Shown here: piece by piece, positions 34,877-41,762 of the stretch | How the letters are laid out: each line of letters starts with the position of its first letter | Numbering within the stretch: position 1 is the stretch's first letter | DNA from: an uncultured Desulfatitalea sp. | Lineage (GTDB): Bacteria; Desulfobacterota; Desulfobacteria; Desulfobacterales; Desulfosarcinaceae | Length of the DNA stretch: 64,000 nt | Reading direction: 5' to 3' | NCBI GenBank assembly: GCA_937868765.1 | Contig: CALMNL010000004.1 | Location: 186,001 to 250,000, forward strand | Program-made: the position numbers and the translations under genes | The notes under the pieces: generated by a model | Told to the model about the DNA's origin: nothing | What the model saw: only the letters and a program-made list of their open reading frames with translations | The model's database searches: none

Positions 34877-36076
34877 TCACTTTTCCGCTTTTACCTTTTC
34901 TTCCCAGACCCCGGCGATCTTCGCCCCGCAAAAGGCGCAGGCGTCGTCTTTCAGATGGTACTGGGGCAGTTGATAGCCCCGGCGCTCGATGATCAGCCGA
35001 CCGCAACCGTGGCAGTAGGTATGATTGGCCGCATGGCCGGGCACATTGCCGATGTAGACATGGCGCAGCCCCTGGGCCAGGGCGATGTCGCGGCAGCGCT
35101 CCAGGGTGGAAACCGGCGTGGCCGCCAGGCGGTCCAGCTTGTACTGGGGGAAAAAGCGCAAAAAATGCAAGGGATGGTCCGGCCCCACGTTCTCGACGAT
35201 CCAGCGGCACATGGCGTGAACCATCTGCAGATCGTCGGTGTAGCCGGGCACGACCAGGTTGGTGATCTCCAGGTGCACCTTGCGCGCATGCAGGGTCTTG
35301 AGGGTTTCGAGCACCGGCGCCAACCGGCCGCCGTTGAGAGCGCGGTAGATGTCGTCGTTGAAGGCCTTGAGATTGATATTGGCGCCATCCACCAGGTCGC
35401 ATAGATCGGCCAGGGGGCCGGAGTTGATGTACCCGTTGGAGATCCACAGGTTCTTGAGTCCGGCGACCTTGGCCGGCCGGGCAATGGCCGTCATGTATTC
35501 GATGAAGGTGATCGGTTCGGAATAGGTATAGGCGACCGCCCGGCAACCATCGCGGCCTGCGGCGGCCACGGCCGCTTCGGGGGCCAGGGGCTCATGGCGC
35601 ACCTGCTCGGGCGTGAATTGGGAAATCTCCCAGTTCTGGCAATTGAGGCAGCGGAAATTGCATCCGGCCGCAGCCAGGGAGTAGACCCGGATTCCGGGAA
35701 GAAAATGGTAGAGGGGCTTTTTCTCCACCGGGTCGATGTGTACGGCGCAGGGGTTGCCGAAGGCCAGGGTATAGAGGCGGCCGCCCAGGTTGACCTTGGA
35801 GCGGCAGACGCTGCGGTCCCCGGGCGAGAGCAGGCAGCGATGGGGGCAGACGGCGCACACCACCCGGCCTTCGGCCATCTTCTCGTAACGATAAGCCTCA
35901 TGGGACCACGGCCCAGGCTGGGCAGGGGCATCGCCCTTGAAGATGTGTCCCCGGATATCTCCGGCCGTATTTTCTTCCGATCGCCGCCCGAAGGGCCGGA
36001 AAGCTTCGGCCGAGGCCGCGCAGCCCAGCCAGGCGGCGGTGCCGGCAATGAAGGTGCGTCGATCCAGGGGCGCCAT
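34877..36076 (-). CDS. amrS: AmmeMemoRadiSam system radical SAM enzyme, Tat-like N-terminus
   Basis: A 399-residue radical SAM protein of the PflA-like AmrS family. The cluster motif CNFRCLNCQNW (about 144-154) gives CxxxCxxC. NLKAFNDDIYR and LEITNLVVPGYTDD are typical strands of the barrel. Extra cysteines lie before the core (CAVCPHRCLLSPGDRSVC) and at the C-terminus (CHGCGRL, CAFCGAK), suggesting auxiliary metal sites. The N-terminus MAPLDRRTFIAG followed by a hydrophobic stretch resembles a twin-arginine signal. It starts 1 bp after the upstream membrane protein with an AGGAGG site. The substrate is unknown for the whole family. The symbol follows the system name. Confidence 0.88.
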   Translation of the reverse strand: MAPLDRRTFIAGTAAWLGCAASAEAFRPFGRRSEENTAGDIRGHIFKGDAPAQPGPWSHEAYRYEKMAEGRVVCAVCPHRCLLSPGDRSVCRSKVNLGGRLYTLAFGNPCAVHIDPVEKKPLYHFLPGIRVYSLAAAGCNFRCLNCQNWEISQFTPEQVRHEPLAPEAAVAAAGRDGCRAVAYTYSEPITFIEYMTAIARPAKVAGLKNLWISNGYINSGPLADLCDLVDGANINLKAFNDDIYRALNGGRLAPVLETLKTLHARKVHLEITNLVVPGYTDDLQMVHAMCRWIVENVGPDHPLHFLRFFPQYKLDRLAATPVSTLERCRDIALAQGLRHVYIGNVPGHAANHTYCHGCGRLIIERRGYQLPQYHLKDDACAFCGAKIAGVWEEKVKAEK

Positions 36077-36077
36077 C

Positions 36078-38162
36078 TCATCCTCCTGCAGTCATCACCG
36101 AACGGCCCATCAGCGACAGGCTGGCGATCTTGACGACGATCAGCAGCGCCACCGTGCCCCCCAACCCGAGATAGGGGATCAACAGCGTACTGGTGAGCAG
36201 CGCACCGCAGGCGCCGCCGACCAAGTCCACGGAGAAAATACCCGCCGCGGCCCGGTTGTCGTCTCCCAGCCGAGCCAGGGCCAGGGGGACCTGAAACCCG
36301 CAGGCCATGGCCAGAACGTAGCCGGCGCCGTAATAAAAGAGGGCCGGCAGCCGGTCGCCGCCCCAGTGCAAACACGCCATCAGCACCGCGAGCCAGATCA
36401 AGATGGCTGCGTCGGCCGCCATCAACCCGGCGGCGGGCCGCCGATGGCGGCTGCCCAGCCAGGCGCCGGGAAGCAATCCGGCCAGGGTGGCGGTGATCAG
36501 CATGCCGATCCGGCCGTAAATGTATCCCAGAAAGATCTGGAAGGCGAAAATCAGCACGATCTGGCCGCCCATGGCCAGCAGGCCGGTGGAAAACAGGATA
36601 TACTCCTCGCTGCGCAGGCGCATGCCGTAGAAGATCAGGGCCGCGGCGACGAGCAGCATGAAAACCCACGGTGAGGCGCCGAACTTGAGGAACCATTGAG
36701 CCCAGGCCACCCGCATCAGATATGGCCGGGTGTCCCGGTTGACCGGCGCCTGGGCGTCGACGGCCTGCATCAGGGCCTGGATGCGCTCGGGGGTTATATC
36801 GCCGTCAAAGAAGGGCCCCACCACCCGGGTGGCGATGCCCAAGCGCGACAGCCGCCGGGGGATGTCCAGGGCCACCGGGACCTGACGGCATAGAAAAAAG
36901 ATCCGTTCGCCGGGCAGCAGCTGCACATGGCGGAAGTGGCGTCCGGCCGTGGCGAACAGGCTGGCGATCTTGCGCCGCTGGGGCTCGGTGAGATAATTGG
37001 CCGCGCCCTCCACGTAAAAGCATAAGACACCCCCGGGACGCAGGTGCCGGGCCGCCAGTTGAAAGAAACGTTCGGTGAAAAAGCGATTGAGCTGGAAGGT
37101 ATCGGGCTCGGGCAGGTTGAGCAGGATGGCATCGTAGCTTTGCGGATCGTGCCGGAGCCACTCCCGGCCGTCGGCGATGACGGGCCGGAGTCCCGGCACG
37201 TCGGCGCTCAAGCCGTACCGGGCCATCAGCCGGGCCACGGCAGGGTCCAGTTCCACATAGGTGATCACAGCCGGCCGGTACTTGGCGATCTCTTCCAATA
37301 CGCCGCCCTGGGCCGAGATCAGCAGGATGCGGCCCGGCGACGCCAGTTGGCTCAGGGGATAGTGTACCACCTGTTCGGCCAGGGTCGGGTCCTGGGTGCC
37401 GGCCAGGGGTTGACCATCGGCAAACAGGGTGACCTGCTCCTGGTCCTGGTGGACGGTGAGCCGGGCATAGCGCGACTCCTCGTAATCGATCAGCCGGCCC
37501 ACCGGCGGTCGCAGCGAGGCGCGCTCGCCGGCCATGCCCAGCAGCGATATCAGTAAAACCCCGGTCAACCCTGCCCACCCCAGCCGGCCGGGGCAGAGCC
37601 GCGCCGCGGCCGCCAGCAGCGGCAGGCTGGCGGCCGGCAGGGCTTGCAAGGGGGTGAGCCAGAACACCAGCACAAAGGTGAAGAGAGCGCCGCCGAGGAT
37701 GTCCCCGAGATTGTCCGCCAGGTAGATGCGGGTGCCGCCGTAGTCCGGAACCTGCCGCCGCAGCAAGAAAAGGCTATAGGGCAACACGTACCCCACCAGC
37801 AGGCCGTAGGGCGCCATGGTCAGCAGCGTGAAGACGAAAATGGGATAGAAGCCCACCGAAAGGCCGGTGCCGAACACCAGCGGCCGCAGCCACCGGATGG
37901 CAGCCAGCTGGATGGGACCCAGCCCGATGAGAAGCAGCGAGAGCCAGAACAGGCGGCTTGAAGCGGCTTGTCGGGCCGAAAGGGCGACGCGGGTGCCCAC
38001 GCCCCCCAATACCAGCCAGTTGAACAGCACCAGAGCGATGGTCACCTCGTTGCCCTGGAACTGGGCCATGTATTCGCGGATCAGAACCAGTTGGGTCGCC
38101 ACCGAAGCGATGCCGGTGGCCACCACCAGATGCACGATGCGGCGCTCAGTGGGGCTCTTCAA
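36078..38162 (-). CDS. Membrane-embedded spermidine synthase-like methyltransferase-fold protein
   Basis: A 694-residue protein. About six transmembrane helices (about 10-220) precede a soluble SpeE-like Rossmann domain (about 225-465), and six or more helices follow (about 490-685). The soluble domain shows ILLISAQGGVLEEIAKY and YVELDPAV, but the catalytic Asp region reads AILLNLPEPDTF where polyamine synthases have a VDSTDP-type motif, so polyamine synthesis is unlikely. The TTG start at 38162 overlaps the end of the MEMO-AMMECR1 gene by 17 bp; a GTG slightly downstream is possible. Its place between the two AmmeMemoRadiSam genes, with tight coupling, suggests it belongs to that pathway at the membrane. 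Confidence 0.8.
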   Translation of the reverse strand: MKSPTERRIVHLVVATGIASVATQLVLIREYMAQFQGNEVTIALVLFNWLVLGGVGTRVALSARQAASSRLFWLSLLLIGLGPIQLAAIRWLRPLVFGTGLSVGFYPIFVFTLLTMAPYGLLVGYVLPYSLFLLRRQVPDYGGTRIYLADNLGDILGGALFTFVLVFWLTPLQALPAASLPLLAAAARLCPGRLGWAGLTGVLLISLLGMAGERASLRPPVGRLIDYEESRYARLTVHQDQEQVTLFADGQPLAGTQDPTLAEQVVHYPLSQLASPGRILLISAQGGVLEEIAKYRPAVITYVELDPAVARLMARYGLSADVPGLRPVIADGREWLRHDPQSYDAILLNLPEPDTFQLNRFFTERFFQLAARHLRPGGVLCFYVEGAANYLTEPQRRKIASLFATAGRHFRHVQLLPGERIFFLCRQVPVALDIPRRLSRLGIATRVVGPFFDGDITPERIQALMQAVDAQAPVNRDTRPYLMRVAWAQWFLKFGASPWVFMLLVAAALIFYGMRLRSEEYILFSTGLLAMGGQIVLIFAFQIFLGYIYGRIGMLITATLAGLLPGAWLGSRHRRPAAGLMAADAAILIWLAVLMACLHWGGDRLPALFYYGAGYVLAMACGFQVPLALARLGDDNRAAAGIFSVDLVGGACGALLTSTLLIPYLGLGGTVALLIVVKIASLSLMGRSVMTAGG

Positions 38163-39618
38163 AATATTGCACTTGATAGGTCTGCACCTCCAGTTGGCCC
38201 TTGCGCCATTCGTCCGCCGACAAGCCGGCTTTCAGGCACAAGTGCGAGAGGAAGGCCTCGGGCTTGGGCAACTGCTCCCATACCTGGGGCAGAAAAGTGG
38301 CGCTGGCGTACCCCTTGCGCAGGATGACGCCATCCACATGGGGCCTCAGTCTGGCGATCAGATCGGTCGCCCCGTCGTAGCGCAGCGGCTCAGGCTCGGT
38401 GAGCACGCTCACCTCGATGGTCACCCGTGACAGCTCCTCGGCCGTCAGGGGTCGGAAGCGCGGGTCGTGAAAGGCGGCATTGAGGGCATAGGTGCGCACC
38501 CCTTCCACCAGCGGTTCCCGGCCGTTCAAGGTGCCGATGCACCCGCGCAGATCTTCGCCGATCTTGAGCGTCACGAAGGTACCACTGGGGGCCTGCAAGG
38601 CCGGATCATCCGGCTGCGGCCCGCCTTTGGGAACGCCCTGGACCGGACGTCCGAAGTGTTCATTGAGGGTGTCGCGGGCCACCGAAAGCAGCACGCGGCC
38701 CTGTTCCTGGGTCAGATGGGATGATTGGGACGGCATGGCGTTTTCTCCAAAAAAGGCGATGGCCGCGTAGCCGACCACGGCCGCACGGTCTCCGGCGGTG
38801 TCGCCGCTGTTGGCATAGTCGAGCAATCGGGGCTGCCAGTGACGCCCGCGGGCCAGGGAAAGCAGCACGGCCAGGGGGTAGCGGCCGCAGGCGCGATTCT
38901 CTTCTTTTTTCAGAAGCGTGTCATCCAACCGCAAAATGGCCGCGATGGTCTCCGAGTCCCTGGCCTTGGCGGCGTCATAGGTCAAATAGTGGGAAAGATC
39001 GCTGCTGACCACTACCAGGGTCCTATCGTCCAGCAGCGGCGCCAGTGCCTGGCCGGCGGCCCGGGGATCGCAGCGCCCCACCACCAGCGGCACCAGGGCC
39101 GCGGCCGGCAGATCGGCTTGCAGGAAGGGCAGGAGCACTTCCAGGCTGTGCTCGCTGCGGTCCGACTCCGGGCTGGTGCCGAAGAGCGCTGTCTCGGCCT
39201 TTAATCGCCGGGCATCGGGGTGCACCGGCACATTGCCCAGGGGCGTGGCATAGGCCGCCACGTCGCTGATGGCAATGCCGGCAAAGCCCACGTGGTGATC
39301 GGGCCCCATGAGGATCACCTTGGCGACGCCGCTGCCGGCCAGCACCCGGTGGGCATGGGCCGCCGTGGGCCCCGAATAGATATAGCCGGCATGGGGCAGC
39401 AGCAGGGCCCGCAAGCGGCCGGGGGGCGCGGTCCAGGGACGCTTTTCGGCCCGGGCGTTCAGGGCGCTGATGGTCCGGCGCAATTCATCGGGATCGGCAG
39501 GGTAGAATTTGCCGGCCCAGACGGCCGGGCGCACATCATCGGCCCGGACGCCGGAGGCCCAGCCAAGCGTGCACCAGAAGGTCCAACAGATGAAAAAGAG
39601 CCTGATGGTCGCCCCCAT
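38146..39618 (-). CDS. MEMO-AMMECR1 fusion protein (AmmeMemoRadiSam system A and B)
   Basis: A 490-residue fusion. A signal-peptide-like segment (1 to about 27) is followed by a MEMO domain (about 28-295) with LLPHAGYIYSGPTA, LMGPDHHVG and SSDLSHYL, the His-rich dioxygenase-like pocket. An AMMECR1 domain (about 305-490) follows, with the diagnostic LRGCIGTL and FHDPRFRPL. In many organisms these are two proteins; here one frame runs through both with only a short linker. The start at 39618 (MGATIR) has GGGGTG upstream; the longer frame is antisense-like and runs into the LOG gene. It is first in the operon with the SpeE-like and radical SAM genes. Its biochemical role is unknown. Confidence 0.87.
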   Translation of the reverse strand: MGATIRLFFICWTFWCTLGWASGVRADDVRPAVWAGKFYPADPDELRRTISALNARAEKRPWTAPPGRLRALLLPHAGYIYSGPTAAHAHRVLAGSGVAKVILMGPDHHVGFAGIAISDVAAYATPLGNVPVHPDARRLKAETALFGTSPESDRSEHSLEVLLPFLQADLPAAALVPLVVGRCDPRAAGQALAPLLDDRTLVVVSSDLSHYLTYDAAKARDSETIAAILRLDDTLLKKEENRACGRYPLAVLLSLARGRHWQPRLLDYANSGDTAGDRAAVVGYAAIAFFGENAMPSQSSHLTQEQGRVLLSVARDTLNEHFGRPVQGVPKGGPQPDDPALQAPSGTFVTLKIGEDLRGCIGTLNGREPLVEGVRTYALNAAFHDPRFRPLTAEELSRVTIEVSVLTEPEPLRYDGATDLIARLRPHVDGVILRKGYASATFLPQVWEQLPKPEAFLSHLCLKAGLSADEWRKGQLEVQTYQVQYFEEPH

Positions 39619-39785: not shown

Positions 39786-41762
39786 TCAAAACAAGTGTAG
39801 CTGCCTGCGATACACATCGGTGACCTCCTGGGGATCGTCGGTGATCACCAGATATTCTTCGATCCACTTGGGTGCGCGCTGGTGGCGCACCATGGTGGCG
39901 ATCTGCTGGCGCATGCCGTTCCAGAAATCCCGCAACCCTTCGGTGTCGAACAGGATAATCGGCACCCGTTCCATGATGGAAAGCTTCATGTTGCACAGGG
40001 TGATGCCCAGTTCTTCCAGGGAGCCCAGTCCGCCCACGTTGAAGATGGGGAAGGAGGCGATCTCGAACCACTTCTGGCGGCTGTGGCGACAGGTGGCCTG
40101 GAATACCTGGCAGAAATCCACATCCGTGGTCATGGCCTGATCCGTGATGTCCAGGTAGTTGGCCCCGGAAAGAATGCCGCGGCGACGGGCCAGGGTGTTG
40201 GCCATCTCCATGACGCCGCTGCCGCCGCCGGTGACGATGCCGATGTTGCGGCCCCAGAAGGCCACCAGGGCGTCCAGCAGGCGCCCCAGGCGCTCCACGC
40301 CGGCCTCGGAGAGCCGCAGGGTGGAACCGTAGAAGGCGAAGAGCATGGACTTGTGAAAGTCGGCCAGCCGGTCGATATCCACGAAATACCCCTTGCCGTC
40401 CCGCATGGTGTGGACCATGAGCCGCTGGTTCAAGTTGCATACCCAGTAGACATCCACGCCGAAAGCGGCATATTCCTGCAGCCGCGAATGATCTTCCTGG
40501 GAGAGGAACGGACCATACTCGCACGAAGCTTCATAGAAGTAAAGCGCCTGAACTTTCCCCTGGGCCACCAGATTGATGATATCGCGATGTTCCACCAGGT
40601 TGGGAAAATACTTCAGGGCCAAGACGCCGGGTACTTCCTCGGCCCCGGGGTGAATGTGCGCGGTGGCGTACTCGTGCGGGCAGCGGCTGCGCAGCGAGAA
40701 GTCTTCCCGGGCCGTGGAGCACTGGGCCTTGGACACGTCGCAGAGCGTTTTGGGCCCATTGGTATGAATGCGTGCTTTGGGCAATCCCAGGGCCGGATCG
40801 ACCCAGGCGATGGAGCGGTCGATGAAGTGGCAGGTTCTTTTACGTTTGGCGCCCAGCCGGCGCTGCAAGCCCTTGAGTTCCGCCAACCCGTAGCGGCCGT
40901 GGTTGCGGGTCGAGCTGCGGCGCCGTTCGGTGGTACGCTCCTTGGGCGCGCCATAAACCCGGGCGCTGATCAGGGGATTGATGATGGTGTGCCGCGTGCC
41001 GTTGATGATTTCCAGATAGATGCGGATGCCCCGGGTCTTGATGGGGTCCAGGACCGTGGCCGGCAGGTTGCGCCCCAGGGAAAATCCGCTTTGCAGCACC
41101 ACGTAGTGCTCGTTGAGGTACATGGAGCAGGTGGTGATGACCCCTTCGCCCGGGGGGATGATCAGGTGGGGCACGCTGCGCGGGATCTGATAGCGGTTGA
41201 GCATGTCCCGCCCGTCTTCGCTGAGCAGAATGCGGCCGAAGGTTTCGGTGGAAACGTCCTTGCGCAGGTCGCATAGCACCCGGTGGGGGGCGATGACGAT
41301 GCTGCCATCGCTGGAGATGGCGGTGGAGGCCGGCAGTTTCAGCACGGAGCGCTCGATGGCGGCCATCACCTCTTCGGAGCCGAGCAGGGCTTCGGGGTCG
41401 CAAAAGACCATGCGGCCCACGGGCAGGCCCTGGTCGAAAAAGGCGCGCAGCTGATCCAGCCCCGGATAACCGGGGATGGCGGCCGACGCGGTCTGGGTCA
41501 GGATCAGCAGATCGCCTTTCAACTGGGCCATGGAAAATGGCTCGCTGGTGATCTGTACCCCCAGACGGGCGATGCGCGACCGCTCGCTGAAAACGATGTG
41601 TTCGGGATGGGACTCCAGGCGCTGGATCATGTGCCGGGAAAGACCGAAGGCGCTTTGAAAGGTGATGCTGTCCGCCTCATGGGACAGCACCTTCAGAATG
41701 TGCCCGTCGTCCGATTGCAGCATGCCCCGGTAGGATCGGGTGTCTCTGGGGATTCTGGCCAT
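39786..41762 (-). CDS. Large LOG-family Rossmann protein with unknown N-terminal region
   Basis: A 658-residue protein. The C-terminal 260 residues resemble the LOG/lysine decarboxylase-like nucleotide-binding fold: GIVTGGGSGVMEMAN, GANYLDITDQAM and VGGLGSLEELG, the last in place of the usual PGGxGTxxE (Pro lost, Thr to Ser). The first 400 residues match no domain that I recognise. They contain several cysteines and a basic stretch near 275-305 (KERTTERRRSS, RRLGAKRKR). GAGGAG precedes the ATG. LOG enzymes cleave nucleoside monophosphates, but this variant's activity is uncertain. It may be cotranscribed with the AmmeMemoRadiSam operon 168 bp downstream. Confidence 0.72.
   Translation of the reverse strand: MARIPRDTRSYRGMLQSDDGHILKVLSHEADSITFQSAFGLSRHMIQRLESHPEHIVFSERSRIARLGVQITSEPFSMAQLKGDLLILTQTASAAIPGYPGLDQLRAFFDQGLPVGRMVFCDPEALLGSEEVMAAIERSVLKLPASTAISSDGSIVIAPHRVLCDLRKDVSTETFGRILLSEDGRDMLNRYQIPRSVPHLIIPPGEGVITTCSMYLNEHYVVLQSGFSLGRNLPATVLDPIKTRGIRIYLEIINGTRHTIINPLISARVYGAPKERTTERRRSSTRNHGRYGLAELKGLQRRLGAKRKRTCHFIDRSIAWVDPALGLPKARIHTNGPKTLCDVSKAQCSTAREDFSLRSRCPHEYATAHIHPGAEEVPGVLALKYFPNLVEHRDIINLVAQGKVQALYFYEASCEYGPFLSQEDHSRLQEYAAFGVDVYWVCNLNQRLMVHTMRDGKGYFVDIDRLADFHKSMLFAFYGSTLRLSEAGVERLGRLLDALVAFWGRNIGIVTGGGSGVMEMANTLARRRGILSGANYLDITDQAMTTDVDFCQVFQATCRHSRQKWFEIASFPIFNVGGLGSLEELGITLCNMKLSIMERVPIILFDTEGLRDFWNGMRQQIATMVRHQRAPKWIEEYLVITDDPQEVTDVYRRQLHLF

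Follow-up and report, generated by a model that had tools for sequence, protein, structure and literature searches.

The 64,000-nucleotide stretch of an uncultured Desulfatitalea sp. analysed here (contig CALMNL010000004.1, positions 186,001 to 250,000; the window) carries an operon for the AmmeMemoRadiSam system, an uncharacterised system to which human MEMO1 and AMMECR1 are related. It encodes the radical S-adenosylmethionine (SAM) enzyme of the system, AmrS, a fusion of its MEMO and AMMECR1 proteins and, between them, a membrane protein with a domain like that of spermidine synthase (SpeE), here called SPEM. AmrS and MEMO-AMMECR1 both begin with what look like export signals, and we regard an extracytoplasmic branch of the system, with SPEM as its dedicated membrane partner, as the likely explanation of the whole. 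We place strong confidence in the export and the dedicated partnership of SPEM, for which the signals, the gene linkage and the intact cluster and metal residues can be read in the sequence itself. We know of no radical SAM enzyme established as acting outside the cytoplasm; the export tags and the recurrent membrane neighbour suggest that radical chemistry could occur there, and this becomes directly testable with a conserved clade of signal-bearing AmrS whose catalytic residues are intact and which has a membrane partner of its own. The system would also gain a candidate fourth component, and a compartment that narrows its possible substrates.

AmrS begins with MAPLDRRTFIAGTAAWLGCAASAEA, a Tat-like (twin-arginine translocation) signal in which a twin-arginine (RR) motif is followed by a hydrophobic core, as expected at the N-terminus of a Tat substrate. 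A first reading of the DNA (the sequence-only reading) had pointed to RRTFIAG and a hydrophobic stretch here; both are present, and relatives carry the same motif class. Because AGGAGG lies 5 nt before the ATG, the RR signal is very probably translated. The enzyme behind it appears intact: like the radical SAM cysteines (Table 1), eight further cysteines are invariant in the 88 AmrS with such a signal (tagged AmrS) and the 93 without, except that C383 is kept in 87 of the 88 tagged ones, and most other residues that are near-invariant in untagged AmrS are also kept in tagged AmrS. The AlphaFold model (predicted local distance difference test, pLDDT, 93.3) has as its nearest solved structure the pyruvate formate-lyase activating enzyme (3cb8; also 3c8f), which is nearest in sequence as well; AmrS differs from it in the Tat-like signal and in having eight more conserved cysteines beyond the radical SAM motif. 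The window genome (5.36 Mb, 18 contigs) has two TatC matches and a second AmrS paralogue, 41% identical, which aligns only from residue 58 of the window AmrS; this paralogue and many AmrS of the same phylum lack the signal, unlike the window AmrS. As background, 30 of the 60 radical SAM matches in the genome were fetched and their 29 distinct frames were scanned under a laxer rule over up to 600 residues, which gave three RR matches, by eye internal and due to chance.

In one AmrS subclade, a CxxCH follows the Tat-like signal and precedes the radical SAM domain in four of the six members (L114, L142, L149 and L171), and L124 and L130 are without it. The motif is possibly a c-type haem or metal site, which we take as a lead only; a haem site would be made only outside and would constitute independent evidence for a periplasmic location.

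MEMO-AMMECR1 starts, as had also been proposed, with a signal-like segment, which is of the general secretory (Sec) type; in the window it falls below the threshold of our hydropathy rule, and that of the near relative L038 lies above it. A PF01871 search of the window genome found this signal-bearing fusion to be its only AMMECR1. H76, H108 and C244 of the MEMO domain align with the metal ligands of human MEMO1 (3bcz, 7kq8) and are kept in 28 of 28 MEMO near SPEM; through these His-His-Cys ligands the human protein binds iron and copper, according to an excerpt of PMC11081632. In contrast to human MEMO1, the window MEMO bears a signal and is fused to AMMECR1. A second MEMO of the window genome (L002, G000:C4:1130232-1131065) is untagged, stands alone and lies beside an open reading frame (ORF) named NifU-like from its translation.

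Our survey covered 297 genomes of one phylum, plus two near named metagenome-assembled genomes (MAGs); 160 stretches were requested, of which SPEM matches accounted for 110 and other AmrS matches for 50, in addition to two from the window genome. AmrS is nearly universal in this sample, with matches over the cut-off in 271 of the 297 genomes, and SPEM was found in 119 of the 297 at E 1e-10. Independently of gene calling, every AmrS above 300 bits was searched for a start codon in frame with a twin-arginine-like motif and, after it, a hydrophobic core (137 AmrS, two truncated ones being excluded from the counts). Dropped from the analysis were AmrS rows below 300 hidden Markov model bits (among them radical SAM neighbours of 111-170 bits in L104, L118 and L145) and, for the tree and the genome table, below 300 model positions; SPEM rows below 200 bits (below 60 bits in one scan), below 450 model positions for linkage and below 640 for the 109-sequence set; and MEMO and AMMECR1 rows below 60 bits.

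Among AmrS rows no more than 1 kb from SPEM, 38 of 40 carry a Tat-like signal (28 with RR, nine with RK and one with KR), or 37 of 39 genes, one row (L049) being a piece of L077; the two misses, L158 and L164, show RRxFL by eye with a weak core. AmrS lying 1 to 4.6 kb from SPEM were tagged in 11 of 19 cases, and those without SPEM within 4.6 kb in the fetched stretch in 26 of 76. Near SPEM, 29 of 30 MEMO rows have a Sec-like signal (two being duplicates, as L059 and L061 are pieces of L087 and L089), the sole miss being the window's own, by threshold, and so do 10 of 13 separate AMMECR1 rows. No Tat-like signal appeared in 274 shifted-frame controls for AmrS and no Sec-like signal in 110 for MEMO and AMMECR1; together with the Shine-Dalgarno site, these controls rule out that the signals are due to chance or to a misread start. 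The absence of signals from homologues, which the sequence-only reading had named as grounds for abandoning it, is therefore not what we found near SPEM. In alignment A2 of AmrS, R6 and F9 are near-invariant, which counts little as the rows of A2 were picked as tagged. In L074-L082 the AmrS signal mostly has RK, MEMO was not detected nearby, and AMMECR1 is stand-alone with its own Sec-like signal.

SPEM and tagged AmrS also go together at the genome level, a co-occurrence that the earlier reading had suggested surveying. Among the 136 genomes with an examined AmrS, tagged AmrS occurred in 73 of 90 SPEM-bearing, two of five weak-SPEM and two of 41 SPEM-lacking genomes (Fisher's test, 1.6e-17, a value that ignores ancestry and covers the AmrS examined rather than every AmrS of every genome). 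In 22 SPEM-lacking genomes, hand-picked for completeness and with all AmrS at E 1e-40 requested, one of 24 AmrS was tagged, and in a set of 14 SPEM-bearing genomes 12 had a tagged AmrS (30 loci examined of 32 matches). Three genomes (G031, G051 and G286) have the tagged AmrS on SPEM's own contig; without them, nine of 11 SPEM-bearing genomes are tagged. When 11 of the 17 SPEM-bearing exceptions were rechecked, tagged AmrS came to light in five genomes of family f20 (G048, G084, G114, G194 and G260); further exceptions show RR by eye (G255, G276 and G045) or contain a tagged fragment (G286, L274).

At the level of loci, 50 of 112 distinct SPEM genes have a tagged AmrS within 4.5 kb (48 by rule, L158 and L164 by eye), and the worry that the SpeE-like gene might be absent from other AmmeMemoRadiSam loci can be set aside. 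One further SPEM, at a contig end, has MEMO-AMMECR1 alone nearby. With S for SPEM, R for AmrS, M for MEMO and A for AMMECR1, the gene orders include A>S>R> (10 cases), M-A>S>R> (8), S>R<A-M< (8), S>R< (7), R>M-A>S> (6) and S>R>M-A> (4), besides singles such as M-A>R>S>, so that AmrS may lie downstream of SPEM, convergent with it or upstream. Because the adjacency of AmrS and SPEM survives such rearrangement, it argues for a working relationship between the two. The idea that the membrane protein is the missing partner of the system is thus well supported by gene context, that is, by linkage and co-occurrence.

The history of the signal points the same way. A quick-search tree of 181 AmrS domains (with support only from the Shimodaira-Hasegawa-like approximate likelihood ratio test, SH-aLRT) places all 88 tagged AmrS in one clade of 96 rows with support 97, and the tag label changes five times, compared to 60.6 in shuffles. 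Because of this pattern we consider that the signal was probably gained once and that tagged AmrS probably represent a lineage of enzymes. Eight rows of this clade are untagged; an RR is visible by eye in L158, L164 and L213, and L200 is a truncated sequence. The remaining rows, L013, L014, L016 and L028, lie beside a MEMO with an N-terminal anchor-like segment, and may represent an anchored variant or a loss of the signal.

SPEM is a single-copy protein in the window genome, and its AlphaFold2 model (50 sequences) has a pLDDT of 93.1 and a predicted template modelling score (pTM) of 0.92. The membrane part is predicted with high confidence to have the fold of the major facilitator superfamily (MFS; VIA-align against SLC37A4, 9w1r: Z 32.1, 345 aligned, 3.5 A), and the inserted domain that of spermidine synthase (Z 27.8, 278 aligned, 3.0 A to 3anx; see also 1uir and 1inl). 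No description among the 50 structure rows matched speaks of an MFS protein that carries a SpeE-like domain, which proves no absence. Helices 1-7 span residues 4-34, 39-62, 68-97, 105-137, 143-168, 171-189 (broken at 179) and 193-211, and those after the mixed domain 498-514, 518-545, 549-572, 576-604, 607-632 and 636-693, the last being long enough for two; the protein was counted as a 14-helix one. The domain is inserted after helix 7, the site of the extra hairpin in 14-helix MFS proteins. Because the number and density of lysine plus arginine (K+R) favour N-in and C-in for both halves in 109 of 109 homologues (AlphaFold loop limits), the SpeE-like domain is predicted to lie on the outer side of the membrane. 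Loop limits set by hand, with the charged 516-518 turn outside loop 8 and 0.002 K+R per residue there, gave the same topology. Helices 6 and 7 are short, at 19 residues each, and a single crossing would flip the side for the N-terminal half; the C-terminal half separately points the domain outside, provided that helix 498-514 crosses.

SPEM matches PF01564 over residues 262-382, above the Pfam cut-off, and reaches the curated cut-off of none of the six matched NCBIfam models, among them that for fused MFS/spermidine synthase (NF037959; 31.1 bits, cut-off 40), a family with which it shares MFS-type helices and a SpeE-like domain and from which it differs in carrying that domain between helices 7 and 8 and so on the outer side. 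E304, kept in 97 of 109 homologues, and D331, kept in 109 of 109, occupy what we take to be the nucleoside-contact Glu and Asp positions of spermidine synthase. Position 349, presumably that of the catalytic Asp, has Asp in only 14 of 109 homologues, is without it in 95 of 109 and is N349 in the window; the Asp of GGGDGG, to which we likewise assign a role in the synthase, does not stand at its place in any of the 100 six-letter loops, and the window loop has five letters, SAQGG. Q285 was considered as a substitute for this Asp and rejected, the loop being one residue short. N359 and R360 are each present in 108 of 109 homologues. SPEM thus has neither of the two Asp residues expected of a spermidine synthase, and polyamine synthesis was rejected as its role on these residues. 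Because the contact residues are kept and the catalytic and GGGDGG Asp are lost, SPEM looks like a nucleoside- or SAM-binding module and not a polyamine synthase.

From these elements we infer a route by which the system could work outside the cytoplasm. AmrS would fold and receive its iron-sulfur clusters in the cytoplasm before export by Tat, which exports folded proteins. MEMO-AMMECR1 would be exported by Sec, and both would act at the inner membrane, on its outer face. SPEM would sit in that membrane with its nucleoside-binding domain facing them, moving and/or binding SAM, or swapping SAM for spent products; AmrS would cleave SAM reductively, and MEMO, with its His-His-Cys metal site, and AMMECR1 would bind or process the substrate. 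Because an outward SAM-fold domain on a transporter accompanies signal-bearing radical SAM enzymes, SPEM may supply, hold or recycle SAM-type nucleosides outside, and we advance such SAM handling tentatively. Possible, and slightly more doubtful, is the specific proposal that SPEM is a dedicated SAM transporter or receptor, whose remodelled SpeE-like domain would offer SAM to the Tat-exported AmrS at the outer face of the inner membrane, and that the periplasmic AmrS, MEMO and AMMECR1 modify an envelope component such as a lipid, quinone, isoprenoid or protein. Work by Burroughs and colleagues reportedly links Memo, in its abstract, to nucleotide-base and isoprenoid modification. The sequence-only reading had considered the cell surface as the site of action; we would prefer the periplasm, and no outer-surface component was recognised in the clustering of neighbour genes, the sole look taken at this.

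Several observations weigh against the proposed exported branch. No tagged AmrS was seen in eight SPEM-bearing genomes: G195; G024, in which another Tat-tagged radical SAM protein adjoins SPEM; G143 and G169, which are 82 and 86% complete; G094, with a truncated AmrS; and G085, G049 and G011, of one family, with a MEMO that has an N-terminal anchor. Conversely, tagged AmrS occurs in two SPEM-lacking genomes (G016 and G192) and in one with a weak match (G041). For 53 of the 112 SPEM, none of the other genes lies within 4.5 kb in the fetched stretch, some contigs ending sooner, and eight of the 112, all of family f20, are near an untagged AmrS. Because the signal rule is also passed by 8 of 10 MEMO rows whose stretch has no SPEM, the majority of these next to a tagged or anchored set, MEMO signals alone are no marker of SPEM loci, and just one plainly untagged MEMO (L007) was available for contrast. 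Eight SPEM-linked AmrS genes (nine rows) have RK, a weak Tat signal, and not RR; L079, scored KR, reads GRKEFLK by eye. Neither a source of SAM nor one of a strong reductant for a radical SAM enzyme outside was found. Finally, no likely partner was recognised as a recurrent fifth gene among the 379 ORFs that neighbour 77 AmrS (75 of them tagged under the rule, and L158 and L164 by eye), which does not exclude one; seven clusters span at least three families, the largest with 11 ORFs in 10 families, as grouped by clustering alone, and neighbour ORFs with two or more CxxCH occur at 2 loci.

The alternative to which we give the most weight is that the proteins are exported and the clusters of AmrS form a redox or metal centre together with the MEMO metal site, without SAM cleavage outside, SPEM handling something other than SAM. 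The binding of iron and copper by MEMO1 (PMC11081632, excerpt), the CxxCH of four of the six AmrS in one subclade and the fact that no extracytoplasmic source of SAM is known to us are in keeping with such a centre; we nevertheless judge it improbable, as tagged AmrS keep the radical SAM cysteines and most near-invariant residues, and SPEM keeps its nucleoside-contact residues. A second alternative, anticipated in part by the sequence-only reading, is that the N-termini are anchors or vestiges, with AmrS and MEMO on the cytoplasmic face, acting on a cytoplasmic or membrane substrate that SPEM transports. SAM and low-potential reductants are cytoplasmic, and some AmrS signals have no obvious AxA site or have RK. 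Against this stand the joint occurrence of signals on AmrS and on MEMO or AMMECR1, the SpeE-like domain likewise predicted outside, and the consideration that an uncleaved signal anchor of this type still puts the enzyme outside, and we find the alternative decidedly improbable. That SPEM is a membrane polyamine synthase or polyamine transporter and a mere neighbour of the system, as its SpeE fold and its above-cut-off match to PF01564 might suggest, is extremely improbable in view of the NCBIfam cut-offs it fails to reach, the altered catalytic position and loop, and its linkage and co-occurrence with tagged AmrS.

The exported AmmeMemoRadiSam branch that we favour resembles the known system (TIGR04335, TIGR04336 and TIGR04337) in its clustered genes, its intact cluster and metal residues and the presence of all three proteins above the curated cut-offs, and differs from it in the export signals, the MEMO-AMMECR1 fusion and the extra MFS/SpeE-like membrane protein. 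Nothing on an exported AmrS was found among the matches listed in our literature search; Burroughs et al. 2019 (JBC), which an excerpt of PMC7159879 cites for Memo-Ammecr1 systems, lay outside that search and may already describe part of this branch.

SPEM was also seen in other company. In L104 (4856-5938) and L145 (3997-5109) it adjoins a different Tat-tagged radical SAM protein (160-170 bits with the AmrS model), which we take to be of the PflX/COG1313 type, and SPEM may serve signal-bearing radical SAM enzymes in general. In L085, L086, L091, L092, L094, L095, L097 and L151, all of one family, SPEM is near an untagged AmrS, with MazG-type and tetrapyrrole-methylase-type genes between the two in L085; tagged AmrS is present elsewhere in five of seven such genomes checked, and in G010 (L027).

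The operon itself is as tight as had been described, with the three AmmeMemoRadiSam parts and the SpeE-like membrane protein in a row on the minus strand, MEMO-AMMECR1 first, then SPEM and AmrS (Table 1). The first two genes overlap by 17 nt and the last two are separated by 1 nt. The start of SPEM is ambiguous, being the TTG or a GTG nine codons further on, and for MEMO-AMMECR1 a GTG lying 9 nt upstream is an alternative start, which would add MKK.

Table 1. Features of the AmmeMemoRadiSam operon, in positions of the window
Feature	Position	Strand	Basis
MEMO-AMMECR1 (490 aa), AmmeMemoRadiSam proteins B and A fused into a single chain	38146..39618	-	TIGR04336, TIGR04335 above cut-off; PF01875, PF01871
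Sec-type signal-like N-terminus of MEMO-AMMECR1, ~27 residues	39538..39618	-	sequence
MEMO domain, residues 30-289	38752..39531	-	TIGR04336 235.9 bits (cut-off 26)
AMMECR1 domain, residues 309-486	38161..38694	-	TIGR04335 198 bits (cut-off 99)
SPEM (694 aa; start at TTG uncertain), membrane protein of MFS fold into which a SpeE-like domain is inserted	36078..38162	-	PF01564; AlphaFold2
SpeE-like domain of SPEM, ~residues 216-495, predicted outside between helices 7 and 8	36678..37517	-	model, residues, charge bias
Shine-Dalgarno AGGAGG of AmrS	36082..36087	-	sequence
AmrS, AmmeMemoRadiSam radical SAM enzyme, 399 aa	34877..36076	-	TIGR04337 348.5 bits (cut-off 220); fold nearest 3cb8
Tat-like signal at the start of AmrS (residues 1-25), with DRRTFIAG, a hydrophobic core and a possible AEA site	36002..36076	-	sequence; same motif class in relatives
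Radical SAM cysteines C139, C143, C146 of AmrS	35639..35662	-	invariant in 88 tagged and 93 untagged AmrS

A promoter scan found 2 candidates compared to 1.7 in shuffles, and a terminator scan 11 compared to 6.3. Among named plasmid examples, 11 records match SPEM, none across more than 80% of it. The only scan of other genomes was a SPEM query, able to find close relatives only, which gave two; these nearest named relatives are MAGs, one labelled Desulfobacterales (80% identity), and their flanking genes are the same as in the window. Upstream of the operon, at 39786-41762 on the minus strand, lies the gene of a 658-aa protein, which matches a family in its C-terminal part only (TIGR00730 below cut-off, PF03641) and has ~91% identical counterparts in L038 and L039.

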